Below, in pieces: positions 15,869 through 21,423 of a DNA stretch of 64,000 nt. A program made the translations under genes and the position numbers. Within the stretch, counting starts at the first letter, position 1; each line of letters opens with the position of its first letter. The stretch comes from Aquiluna sp. (GTDB taxonomy: Bacteria > Actinomycetota > Actinomycetes > Actinomycetales > Microbacteriaceae). The notes under the pieces are model-generated. The model saw nothing but the letters and a program-made list of their open reading frames with translations, was not told where the DNA came from and ran no database searches. The stretch covers positions 1-64,000 of the forward strand of contig JAGYIJ010000002.1 of assembly GCA_018402685.1 (NCBI GenBank). The letters are read 5' to 3'.

Positions 15869-15942
15869 CGGGCTGTAGCGCAGCTTGGTAGCGCACTTGT
15901 CTGGGGGACAAGGGGTCGTGGGTTCAAATCCCGCCAGCCCGA
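15869..15942 (+). tRNA. tRNA-Pro (anticodon GGG)
   Basis: Acceptor CGGGCTG/CAGCCCG, anticodon arm CTTGT-CTGGGGG-ACAAG, T arm GTGGG-TTCAAAT-CCCGC; CCA not encoded. Confidence 0.95.
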
Positions 15943-15992
15943 CTCAAAAGTTACCTAGAAATCCCCTTTTCTGAACTAGAGTCGGTCTTATC

Positions 15993-16006
15993 GCCCCAGC
16001 CGGGGC
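15993..16006 (+). terminator. Terminator-like hairpin after tRNA-Pro
   Basis: GCCCC-agcc-GGGGC followed by CTTCCTTT; equivalent hairpin conserved in the second copy at 19370-19382. Confidence 0.6.
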
Positions 16007-16033
16007 CTTCCTTTGGCGTTGACTCGAAGTAAC

Positions 16034-16063
16034 ACTCTCCAGCTGTGCACAGCACCGGAGAGT
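16034..16063 (+). promoter_or_regulatory. Putative Shine-Dalgarno-sequestering hairpin (copy 1)
   Basis: ACTCTCC (16034-16040) pairs with GGAGAGT (16057-16063), which contains the SD upstream of ATG 16071; loop holds palindrome GCTGTGCACAGC. Confidence 0.65.
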
Positions 16064-16070
16064 ATAAGAA

Positions 16071-19000
16071 ATGTCAGCAAGGCATTCCACTCCAACAAGA
16101 AGCAATAGAGCAGTCGCTGTTGTCATAGCGCTGATTGCAAGTCTTTTAGTGCTGGCGTCTCCAAACCTTGAGTCCAAGGCTAACTACCTCTCTTTTGATA
16201 CCAGTGCAATCACCTATAACGACCGAGTTTGCAATCTTGGCGATCCAAACAATCACACCACCAGTGACACAGCTTTTGAGATTTCCACCTCAGAGCAGCT
16301 CTGGGAGATAACCGACTGCGTGTCGAACACCGCAACTATTTACTTTGAACTTGGCGATGACATTGATGTCAGCGATGCCAGCAAAGCAGGAAGCGCGCCA
16401 ACGAACTCTCCAATTGGCTTCAGCACCTCAGCACTTGCCTACTCATTCCGGGGGGTTCTGGATGGAGCGGGCAGGTCCATCAAGAATGTTTCAATGTCTA
16501 GCTCGACATACGGCGTGGGACTATTTGCCGCTTTGCAAAATGCGACCGTTAGCAATCTGATAATTCACGGCGATTTCGTAACTACAAACACCGGAACGAC
16601 TACCACCATGGCAGCGGGCGCCCTGGCTATCACAACCATTGACACCGTGATGCTTCGCAACCTAACAAACTCCTCTTCGGTTTCGGGTTTTGCGAACGTT
16701 GGAGGTTTGGTTGGTTACGCTCAAAATTTGATCTCATTTGAGTCAGTTCGAAATGATGGGACTGTCAGGGGAGAGTCCGTTTCCGTCGGTGGTCTGATCG
16801 GTCTGATGGCCGCCACACCCCGCATCTTAGGGTCTTCAAATACTGGGGCTGTATTTGGCATAACCAGGGTTGGCGGCCTGATTGGTAACTTGCCAGGGGT
16901 TAACGCTGAAATTGTTGACTCCAGCAATAGCGGCACCGTAACCGGCACCGTCCAATTTGTAGGGGGGCTTGTCGGTCATGCACAGGGGAATGGAGTACTC
17001 GTAATGAGCTCCAGCAACACTGGCAGGGTAGACGGAGGCGCAAACGCTGGGGGCCTACTAGGTCACTGTGGCGGGGTATGCAGTGCTCACGGCGCTTCCA
17101 ACACTGGCCAGATTTCCGCGAGTGAAAAAGCAGGCGGCTTGGTTGGATTTGGAATAACGGTGAGCATTTATGACTCATTCAACACCGGCACTGTTTCCGC
17201 AACCTCGCAGCAAGCAGGTGGCCTAGTCGGCTATGCCGATAACCCAACCATCGAGAGGTCTCACAACAGCGCCCGTGTCTCTGGCACCCAAAGCGTCGGC
17301 GGCCTGGTGGGCTGGACTTTGCAAATCCTGAAAATTGACTCCTCACAGAACACTGGAGAAATCACGGGCTCCTTAGGTTCTGTTGGAGGACTGGGAGGTT
17401 GGTTACAAAATCCTGGGGGGAGCGCTCAAATAACCAAATCGCACAACACCGGATCGGTCTTTGGGTCGAATCAGGTTGGCGGCCTGATGGGTTATGTGAA
17501 TGGCGACACCAACCTCGACTCCTCCTCTAACACCGGACCGGTCTCTGGAACTGGATTCGATGTCGGCGGCCTGGTGGGTTATGCAAAGTCCAACGCCAAT
17601 ATCAACTCCTCTTACAACACCGGACCAGTCTCTGGAACTCTCAACAGGGTGGGCGGCTTGGTAGGTCTGGTCGAACAAAACGTAATCGCAACCATCACCT
17701 CCTCCTATAACATCGGTGCAGTCAGGGGACGTAATGAAGTGGGTGGCTTAGTGGGCTTGGTTAGGTCTGATGTCAGACTCACCTCCTCCTATAACATCGG
17801 AACAGTCTCCGGAGCGCAGTATGTCGGTGGCCTGATGGGCTATGCAAGGTCCAACGCCAACATCGACTCCTCCTACAACACCGGACCGGTCTCTGGGTCG
17901 GCTCAGGTCGGCGGCTTGGTGGGTATCGTGGTTCTCGAGGGCAACATCAACTCCTCCTACAACACCGGAGAAGTTTCCGGAACTGGAAATGTTATCGGCG
18001 GACTGGTGGGTATTGCACAGGCCGACGCCATCATCAACTCCTCCTACAACACCGGAGCAGTAACTGGAAATAATGATTTTGACGGACTCGCTGGAAGCGT
18101 CCAGGGCTCCGTCACCACCACATCTGCATACAGCTCAGTGGCATCAAGATACGTTACAGCCAGACCGGCTAATGATATGAAGCTGGCAAGCACCTTTGTC
18201 GGCTTTGACTTCAGCTCCAGCAATCCGGTTTGGGGCTTCGGTTCACCAATTGACAATCAGGGCTTTCCAATGCTCAGAGTCTTTGCTGAGCTCAGCTCCT
18301 ACTTCAGCGACTTTGCAAGATTTTCATCCAACTCGGAGCTAGGTTCACTGGTTCTAAGCCAGGGTGTGCTGTCGCCCACTTTTGCAAGTGCTACCACAAA
18401 CTACGTTGTCAGTCTCTCTAACGATGTGAGCGCTATGACCCTGACGCCCGTCACTTCAGACTCCGATGCCTCAATAACTGTTGAGGGCTCGGCTGTGGCA
18501 TCGGGTAATGAATCTGCAGCTATCTCCTTGATTGTCGGCACAAACACAATCACAATTTTGATTACCGCTGCGGACTCAACCACAACCTCTTACACACTCA
18601 CAGTCTTTAGATCCAATCCACCATCACAGCCCGAACCTGAGGTTGAGGCTGAGTCGCGGCCGGCTGTCTATCTTGGCCCAGTTCTGAATGGACCAATGGA
18701 GACTCACGCGGGGGCTCTGGTTGTCTTCTCCGGGCGGCGCCTAGAAACCATATCAAGAGCTCTTGTCCAGGAAACCCAAATCACTATTGTGTTGAGTTCT
18801 CCCAAATCTTTGGTCTTGGAAATTCCAAGCTCGATGTCACCTGGTAGTTATGACCTGAGGCTGCAATCAAGCTTTGGGCTGCTCACTTTTCAAAAGGGCC
18901 TGAGGGTGCTTGAGAATGCCAGCACAGCAATCGTCATCGAGGCCCTAGATAAGAAGCTCACCGTCGGCGCATTCAAAGGCTTTATCGCCATCTACACCAA

Positions 19001-19190
19001 GGGTTATGAGGGTCAAAGACTCTCAGCCAAGGTTGCAGGCAAGTGGCTGGTTGTTAGTTCCCTAGATGAAACCTGGAGCGGCAATAACTACAGCCGAACA
19101 ATTAGGTCCACTGGTGCCGGTAAGTCAATAAAGGTCCACCTCTACATCGATAGGCAGTTTGTGAGAACCGAAGAACTTAGAACCAAATAG
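16071..19190 (+). CDS. Secreted GLUG-repeat surface protein (copy 1), with cadherin-like beta-sandwich domain and C-terminal TIG-like region
   Basis: N-terminal signal-like hydrophobic segment; many VGGLVGYA / SSYNTG repeats; LSQGVLSPTFASATTNYVVSLSNDVSAMTLTPVTSD...NTITILITAADSTTTSYTLTV resembles PF12733. Confidence 0.88.
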   Translation: MSARHSTPTRSNRAVAVVIALIASLLVLASPNLESKANYLSFDTSAITYNDRVCNLGDPNNHTTSDTAFEISTSEQLWEITDCVSNTATIYFELGDDIDVSDASKAGSAPTNSPIGFSTSALAYSFRGVLDGAGRSIKNVSMSSSTYGVGLFAALQNATVSNLIIHGDFVTTNTGTTTTMAAGALAITTIDTVMLRNLTNSSSVSGFANVGGLVGYAQNLISFESVRNDGTVRGESVSVGGLIGLMAATPRILGSSNTGAVFGITRVGGLIGNLPGVNAEIVDSSNSGTVTGTVQFVGGLVGHAQGNGVLVMSSSNTGRVDGGANAGGLLGHCGGVCSAHGASNTGQISASEKAGGLVGFGITVSIYDSFNTGTVSATSQQAGGLVGYADNPTIERSHNSARVSGTQSVGGLVGWTLQILKIDSSQNTGEITGSLGSVGGLGGWLQNPGGSAQITKSHNTGSVFGSNQVGGLMGYVNGDTNLDSSSNTGPVSGTGFDVGGLVGYAKSNANINSSYNTGPVSGTLNRVGGLVGLVEQNVIATITSSYNIGAVRGRNEVGGLVGLVRSDVRLTSSYNIGTVSGAQYVGGLMGYARSNANIDSSYNTGPVSGSAQVGGLVGIVVLEGNINSSYNTGEVSGTGNVIGGLVGIAQADAIINSSYNTGAVTGNNDFDGLAGSVQGSVTTTSAYSSVASRYVTARPANDMKLASTFVGFDFSSSNPVWGFGSPIDNQGFPMLRVFAELSSYFSDFARFSSNSELGSLVLSQGVLSPTFASATTNYVVSLSNDVSAMTLTPVTSDSDASITVEGSAVASGNESAAISLIVGTNTITILITAADSTTTSYTLTVFRSNPPSQPEPEVEAESRPAVYLGPVLNGPMETHAGALVVFSGRRLETISRALVQETQITIVLSSPKSLVLEIPSSMSPGSYDLRLQSSFGLLTFQKGLRVLENASTAIVIEALDKKLTVGAFKGFIAIYTKGYEGQRLSAKVAGKWLVVSSLDETWSGNNYSRTIRSTGAGKSIKVHLYIDRQFVRTEELRTK
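16690..18090 (+). repeat. In-frame tandem coding repeats (GLUG units, roughly 75-90 bp each)
   Basis: Recurrent GG(C/T)GGC(C/T)TGGTGGG...AACTCCTCCTACAACACCGGA; the last units (17.5-18.06 kb) are nearly identical at DNA level, some spaced 84 bp. Confidence 0.85.
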
Positions 19191-19247: not shown

Positions 19248-19320
19248 CGGGCTGTAGCGCAGCTTGGTAGCGGACTTTTCTGGGGGCAAGGACTGGTTGG
19301 TTCAAATCCCGCCAGCCCGA
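19248..19320 (+). pseudogene. Degenerate tRNA-Pro copy (pseudo-tRNA)
   Basis: Near-identical to 15869-15942 with intact acceptor stem, but one-base deletion and mispairs in anticodon and T arms (CTTTT-CTGGGGG-CAAGG; GTTGG/CCCGC). Confidence 0.85.
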
Positions 19321-19369
19321 CTCAAAAGTTATAAAACCTTCTTATTGGGGAACTATAATTCGCCTTATC

Positions 19370-19382
19370 GCCCCTTCGGGGC
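19370..19382 (+). terminator. Terminator-like hairpin after pseudo-tRNA (copy 2)
   Basis: GCCCC-ttc-GGGGC followed by CTTCTTTT, homologous to copy 1. Confidence 0.6.
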
Positions 19383-19407
19383 CTTCTTTTGGCGTTGACT
19401 CTTAGTA

Positions 19408-19439
19408 ACTCTCTCCATTTGTGCACAGCACTAGAGAGT
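19408..19439 (+). promoter_or_regulatory. Putative Shine-Dalgarno-sequestering hairpin (copy 2)
   Basis: ACTCTCT (19408-19414) pairs with AGAGAGT (19433-19439), same 7-nt spacing to ATG 19447; innermost C-G pair of copy 1 is T-A here. Confidence 0.65.
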
Positions 19440-19446
19440 CCGAATA

Positions 19447-21423
19447 ATGTCCATCAACAACTCCATTCACACTAGAAGCAATAGAGCTTCTTTAGTTGTC
19501 ATTGCCCTGATTGCAAGTCTTTTGGTGCTGGTTTCTCCTGTCTCACAGTCCAAGGCTGATTACCTTACATTCACTAACTACACAACTGATGCTGCGATCA
19601 CCTACAACGACCGAGTTTGTAATCTTGGTGACCCCTCAACCCACTTGACTGCAGCAACAGCATTTGAGATCTCGACAGCTGACCAGCTTTGGGAGATAAC
19701 CGATTGCGTCTCTAGCAGCGCAACCATTTACTTTGAACTTGGAGACGACATCGATGTCAGCCAGGCATCTACTGCACCCACCAACTCTCCAATTGGCTTC
19801 AGCACCTCAGCACTTGCCTACTCATTCAGCGGCGTCCTAGACGGCAAGAACAAGACGATTTCTGGACTAGCTATGTCCACCTCAAGCTATGGAGTGGGCC
19901 TCTTCGCCTATCTGCATAACGCCACCATAAGCAACTTGGTGATTTCCGGAAGTTTTGTCACTACAACCTCAACAATGAACAACCCAGCCCACTCAGCTGG
20001 GTCCCTCGCAATCAGGGCTGACGGAACTCTCTACCTTGCCTCGATTAGCAATCAGGCCAGCGTAAAGGGGTGGAGGGCTGTAGGAGGGCTAGTTGGCTGG
20101 GTGCAGGGCCGATCTGAAATACAGGGATCACACAACTATGGAAATGTCTGGGCCGACCGCTACCTCGCCTCCCATACTGGTGGATTATTGGGTTACGTTG
20201 CTGGGGACTCGACTATCAAGAGTTCTGGGAACTCTGGCGAGGTTAAAGGTAGAGATTATGTGGGTGGCTTAGTTGGCTATTTCCATCAGGGGAGTGGCTA
20301 CTTCGAGAACGCCTTCAACACGGGCTCGATACTGGGTGTTTCTAGTGTGGGAGGCCTCGCTGGGTATGTGCGAATTGACGCCACCATCACTTCTTCTTTC
20401 AACGCAGGAAGCGTGTTGGCCAGCAACTTTTTTGCTGGTGGGCTGGCTGGGTTTGTAAAGTCCAATGCTTACATTGACAGCTCTTATAACACCGGGCCGA
20501 TTGAAAGTTCAGGAGTTGCAGGCGGATTGGTGGGCAGGGTTGGGGACAACCGTGCTTTCGTAGCGGCTTCCTTCAACGCAGGCTCTATCGCTGGACCCTA
20601 CGACGTCGATGGCCTTGTGGGCTTAACTAACTATGCAGTTACCACATCCTCGGCATACAGTTCCTTTGCATCAAGTTTTGTTGCAACTACACCAGTTGTG
20701 GATATGAAACTGGCAAGTACGTTTGTGGGATTTGACTTCAGCACAGTGTGGGGTTTTGGCACCTGCAGTGATAACGGCGGCTATCCGATGCTTAGAGTTT
20801 TTGGTGCCGTGGGTAGCTACTTCAACGCAAGCTGCGGAGTGAACGCGGTTGTTTCTTCTCAGCCTGAGCAAGCCCCGGCGCAAACCCCAGCACCTGTCTA
20901 CTCAGGACCAGTCATCTCTGGAGCACCGTCTGCCATAGCTGGCACTGAGGTCACCTTGACTGGAAACAGGCTTGAGAGTGTTACCACCGCTCATGTTGGT
21001 GGTGTTCAGGTCAGGATCGTCTCTGCACTAGCTCAGTCACTGACCTTGGATATTCCAAGCTCTATGGTTCCTGGAAGCTATGACCTGGTGTTGCAGTCCA
21101 GCTTTGGAACTCTAACTATTCAGAATGGCCTAACAGTGTTGGCTCCTTTGGACACGGGCTCAGTTGTTGAGGCAACCGATAAGAAGCTCACGGTTGTTGC
21201 ACTACAGGGCTTTATCGCCATCTACACCAAAGGTTATGAGGGACAAAGACTCTCTGCCAAGGTTGCAGGCAAGTGGCTAGTAGTTGAATCTCTAGATGAA
21301 TCCTTCAAGGGCAACGACCACAGCCGCACCGTGAGACGAACCGGATCCGGATACAGCATCAAGGTCCATCTCTACATCGATAGAGAGTTTGTGAGAACCG
21401 AGGAGCTTGTGACCGCTCGGTAG
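19447..21423 (+). CDS. Secreted GLUG-repeat surface protein (copy 2), lacking the cadherin-like domain
   Basis: Same N-terminus (NRASLVVIALIASLLVLVSP), GLUG repeats, TIG-like region and near-identical C-terminal tail (GFIAIYTKGYEGQRLSAKVAGKWLVV). Confidence 0.88.
   Translation: MSINNSIHTRSNRASLVVIALIASLLVLVSPVSQSKADYLTFTNYTTDAAITYNDRVCNLGDPSTHLTAATAFEISTADQLWEITDCVSSSATIYFELGDDIDVSQASTAPTNSPIGFSTSALAYSFSGVLDGKNKTISGLAMSTSSYGVGLFAYLHNATISNLVISGSFVTTTSTMNNPAHSAGSLAIRADGTLYLASISNQASVKGWRAVGGLVGWVQGRSEIQGSHNYGNVWADRYLASHTGGLLGYVAGDSTIKSSGNSGEVKGRDYVGGLVGYFHQGSGYFENAFNTGSILGVSSVGGLAGYVRIDATITSSFNAGSVLASNFFAGGLAGFVKSNAYIDSSYNTGPIESSGVAGGLVGRVGDNRAFVAASFNAGSIAGPYDVDGLVGLTNYAVTTSSAYSSFASSFVATTPVVDMKLASTFVGFDFSTVWGFGTCSDNGGYPMLRVFGAVGSYFNASCGVNAVVSSQPEQAPAQTPAPVYSGPVISGAPSAIAGTEVTLTGNRLESVTTAHVGGVQVRIVSALAQSLTLDIPSSMVPGSYDLVLQSSFGTLTIQNGLTVLAPLDTGSVVEATDKKLTVVALQGFIAIYTKGYEGQRLSAKVAGKWLVVESLDESFKGNDHSRTVRRTGSGYSIKVHLYIDREFVRTEELVTAR

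Follow-up and report, generated by a model that had tools for sequence, protein, structure and literature searches.

Three described systems lie closest to the element analyzed here, a predicted hairpin over the Shine-Dalgarno (SD) sequence of two tandem genes for GLUG-repeat surface proteins: hairpins in 5′ untranslated regions that sequester the SD, RNA thermometers (fourU, ROSE), and the leaders of riboswitches, ribosomal-protein genes and T-box genes. As in SD-sequestering hairpins, the SD arm just ahead of the start codon is paired within the stem in each copy; however, the predicted SD accessibility at this locus is ordinary for the genome, and an effect on translation is putative. As in fourU and ROSE thermometers, a short hairpin covers the SD, but the locus has no fourU motif and no Rfam match, its stem is predicted to be stable at 45 °C, and the gene encodes neither a heat-shock nor a virulence regulator. 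As in riboswitches and ribosomal-protein or T-box leaders, a terminator-like hairpin precedes an SD hairpin within the leader, whereas an Rfam match, a conserved aptamer core, phylogenetic spread and a matching gene function are all lacking here. A literature search on such a leader or hairpin returned nothing on point.

The window, that is, the whole stretch of DNA analyzed, comprises 64,000 nucleotides of an Aquiluna sp. contig. The genome carrying the tandem GLUG locus is a 1.48-Mb draft in three contigs, and it was compared with 22 congeners. On the plus strand, an intact tRNA-Pro (GGG) at 15869–15943, identified by ARAGORN and by Rfam (RF00005), lies upstream of gene 1 (16071–19190), which encodes a 1039-aa secreted-type GLUG-repeat protein with a Cadherin-like domain (Pfam matches: Glug and Cadherin-like). 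Further along the same strand, a second tRNA-Pro (GGG) at 19248–19321, 91% identical to the first, was identified by ARAGORN and scored below the Rfam gathering threshold. It is followed by gene 2 (19447–21423), whose 658-aa product is a paralog of the gene 1 protein, 60% identical over aligned columns. The gene 2 protein had no Pfam match at the threshold used; GGLVG-type repeats like those of gene 1 were seen in it by eye. The duplicated unit consists of tRNA, leader and gene, with a tRNA-Pro (GGG) copy preceding each paralog. The second tRNA-Pro is probably a decaying duplicate; it is full length, and the CCAATAGACT-type sequence that precedes the first copy, and also tRNA-Pro in several congeners, is missing from it.

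The wider surroundings of these genes yielded additional observations. The C terminus of the GLUG proteins (~170 aa; window positions 18675–19187 and 20905–21414) matched multi-copy ORFs in all 23 of 23 genomes of the genus, with 1 to 14 matches each, and possibly represents a common domain for anchoring or sorting at the cell surface. The 3′ half of tRNA-Pro (GGG), ~51 nt, recurs in tandem in several congeners, either downstream of the intact tRNA or away from it (L033 on G004:C69, 7491–11685; L035 on G002:C3, at 6377, 9334 and 11932; and L044, L045 and L036). Alignment showed a conserved stretch of ~70 nt, with many TGTTCG/CGAACA repeats, ahead of most of these half-copies. The repeat units of L033 span 1–1.7 kb and hold one or two genes each, with no obvious integrase. 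Their arrangement resembles an array of site-specific insertions at tRNA-Pro, where the tandem GLUG genes of the window also lie.

The original prediction described a seven-pair stem upstream of each gene, a fixed distance of 7 nt between the 3′ arm and the ATG, and a palindrome kept in the loop, and each of these statements agreed with the sequence. In the copy 1 hairpin (16034–16063, plus strand), ACTCTCC (16034–16040) forms seven perfect pairs with GGAGAGT (16057–16063); in the copy 2 hairpin (19408–19439, plus strand), ACTCTCT (19408–19414) does the same with AGAGAGT (19433–19439). In both hairpins, 7 nt separate the end of the 3′ arm from the ATG, and TGTGCACA occupies the loop (16044–16051 and 19420–19427). 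The register of copy 2 is offset by 2 nt from that of copy 1. The SD arm of copy 2, AGAGAG, lacks the GGAG core and is only a weak SD, and the GCUG/CAGC inner stem of the best copy 1 fold is absent from this copy. The predicted folding energies of the 44-nt segments were −15.6 kcal/mol for copy 1 and −10.0 kcal/mol for copy 2, with the SD region mostly paired. Both predicted folds therefore hold the SD-pairing stem that characterizes a cis-regulatory SD-sequestering element.

The hairpin forms the 3′ end of a ~80-nt block (copy 1, 15984–16063; copy 2, 19361–19439; plus strand) that is 84% identical between the copies (67/80). Identity was 18/31 (58%) in the stretch between tRNA and block and 2/7 (29%) in the spacer between SD and ATG. 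In the coding sequences, it was 18/30 (60%) over codons 1–10 and 91/224 (41%) at fourfold-degenerate sites, with 29/55 at those in codons 1–132. The block is thus conserved above the neutral background given by the fourfold sites and by flanks of 29–58% identity, which indicates that something in the leader is constrained. By these figures, the copies are old, and constraint on the block looks more likely than recent duplication; a very short gene-conversion tract is an alternative source of its identity. Just upstream of the block, a possible −10 box TAGAGT (15977–15982) aligns with TATAAT in copy 2 (19354–19359), and the block would then be a 5′ untranslated region starting just after this box. 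A promoter scan upstream of both genes recognized no promoter and no −35. Within the block lies a terminator-like hairpin (15993–16006 in copy 1, where its arms are GCCCC/GGGGC and its T tract is weak; 19370–19382 in copy 2), which could serve the tRNA. Between this hairpin and the ATG, no TANNNT box is common to both copies, so the SD hairpin is probably transcribed.

The GTTGACTCNNAGTAAC dyad of the block (GTTGACT/AGTAAC) gave no stable fold by itself as an RNA hairpin. RNA pairing therefore cannot explain the whole block, and a DNA-level role for part of it is possible. A transcription factor might bind the two dyads, GTTGACTCNNAGTAAC and CTCTCC..TGTGCACA..GAGAG, with RNA pairing as a by-product. 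This explanation, which we consider unlikely, would fit the lack of an RNA fold in the first dyad, the adjacency and retention of both dyads with differences mostly in their centres, and the GGGGTATACCCC-type dyad upstream of other GLUG genes of the genome, one of them beside a response-regulator-like gene; however, no promoter was recognized for such a site to overlap, and the genome holds no further copy of the element. The dyad of those other genes was recorded as a near-palindromic GGGAATACCCC / GGGGTATACCCC site upstream of two GLUG genes on contig C1 (L060, ~2130; L061, ~2125; minus strand), and a LuxR-type response-regulator-like ORF (L061, 2177–2809) adjoins one of them. This site may be a candidate regulator site for the GLUG gene family.

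The two stems differ at their innermost pair, C-G in copy 1 and T-A in copy 2, and this difference had been taken for a compensatory double substitution. We counted pairs on homologous columns, defined by a 58-nt alignment without gaps that runs from GCGTTGAC to the ATG. The results showed that copy 1 pairs columns 19–25 with 42–48 and copy 2 pairs columns 17–23 with 42–48, the 3′ arm being common, so the comparison had been made between non-homologous bases. In the copy 1 register, copy 2 retains five pairs unchanged and loses two (U/U at 19/48, C/A at 25/42); in the slid register of copy 2, copy 1 loses one pair, and another is G-U. Neither register contains a two-sided pair change, and covariation between the paralog hairpins was rejected once homologous columns were fixed; this absence of compensatory change among homologs comes from two sequences and has low power. 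A covariance test across relatives cannot be done, because the element is known from these two sequences only. Copy 2 recovers its 7 bp by shifting two bases along the CUCUCU run. With five random substitutions, the SD arm retained a 7-bp stem in 7.6–8.1% of trials; with two random substitutions placed in the arms, the share was 3–6%. The preservation of stem length through a register slide is mildly suggestive and is not covariation. Unaligned, by-eye comparison of stems between paralogs can, as a caution, yield false compensatory change.

The element was found in its own genome as two tandem copies and in none of the other collections searched. A covariance-model search found no recurrence beyond these copies in the 22 congeners, and a DNA search for the leader in the same genomes was also negative. 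A 400-genome sample of the family gave short, chance-level matches only. A strict motif pattern run across the genome contigs found no further leader, a protein scan of these contigs found no relatives, and searches of plasmids and phages did not find the leader. The two further GLUG paralogs on contig C1 of the same genome have different leaders without the element, as do the GLUG genes that four congeners (G009, G010, G021 and G022) carry at this tRNA-Pro locus. Rfam yielded no relevant family for the leader at gathering or permissive thresholds. Neither of the signs by which a riboswitch or leader RNA is recognized, recurrence upstream of related genes in other genomes or a match to a curated covariance model, was found. 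Among the rejected candidates, the Rfam matches to mir-242_2 and PhotoRC-I fell far under the cut-off, a match of a viral contig (L082) to part of the motif shared no other feature with the leader and seems due to chance, and a low-scoring covariance-model match in L035 (13.7 bits, E 0.37) was set aside.

These searches bear on the proposal that the leader is a regulated translational switch, namely a thermometer or a protein- or ligand-bound leader. The position of the hairpin over the SD and the conservation of the leader are consistent with such a switch, but no relevant Rfam match was obtained even at the permissive threshold, covariation and relatives are absent, and the predicted stem of either copy persists between 15 and 45 °C, a behavior ill-suited to a thermometer. 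We therefore regard a regulated switch as improbable. An RNA thermometer in particular is disfavored, since the predicted minimum-energy stem is unchanged over this range and no Rfam thermometer family matched.

We also compared the hairpins with the genome background. A stem of at least 7 contiguous bp over the SD region was present in 15 of 438 ORFs (3.4%) and in 1.6% of shuffled leaders; these ORFs came from the window and a 400-kb sample of the same genome, with starts set by rule, some of them wrong. When the 171 ATG genes that carry an SD-like motif were ranked by predicted SD accessibility, the two genes took positions 32 and 41 counted from the least accessible, and the modeled accessibility of both appears ordinary for the genome. 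These background values are compatible with an incidental hairpin, in which case the leader would be conserved for its SD, the tRNA terminator or its duplication history, and the CU/GA stem would have no role. The breakage of two of the seven copy 1 pairs in the homologous register and the absence of the hairpin from every related gene point the same way. However, an incidental stem would regain its length in copy 2 by a register slide in only ~8% of cases by chance, and the block is conserved well above fourfold sites. We consider this explanation possible, though doubtful.

The reading we tentatively prefer is that the SD hairpin in the shared leader acts as a fixed damper on initiation, because the SD arm lies in a 7-bp stem in the fold of either copy, the leader block is more conserved than its surroundings, and two arm substitutions jointly shift one 7-bp register to another. 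According to this model, the hairpin would be the 3′ end of a ~80-nt 5′ untranslated leader common to the two tandem GLUG-repeat surface-protein genes, and the leader would be transcribed as one unit from the −10 at 15977–15982. In the mRNA, the CUCUC arm would pair with the GAGAG arm holding the weak SD, and the hairpin would lower translation initiation at a fixed level. Several results count against a damper: the lack of covariation, the ordinary SD accessibility, a frequency of 7-bp SD stems high enough for them to be incidental, paralogous and syntenic GLUG genes without the hairpin, the restriction to two sequences in one genome, and the GTTGACTCNNAGTAAC part without an RNA fold by itself.

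The cis-regulatory interpretation first put forward is thus retained in part: a constrained leader with an SD hairpin in both paralogs stands, whereas the covariation does not (0 two-sided pair changes). The element appears to be a lineage-private leader and at most a minor private control element. It is highly improbable, in our judgment, that a private leader RNA selected in both tandem copies slides its register along the CU/GA repeat and switches surface GLUG expression in response to a protein or condition. If the leader controls translation, it would determine how strongly a small actinobacterial genome expresses two large secreted repeat proteins, and it would offer an example of stem upkeep by register slip, which covariation tests miss.
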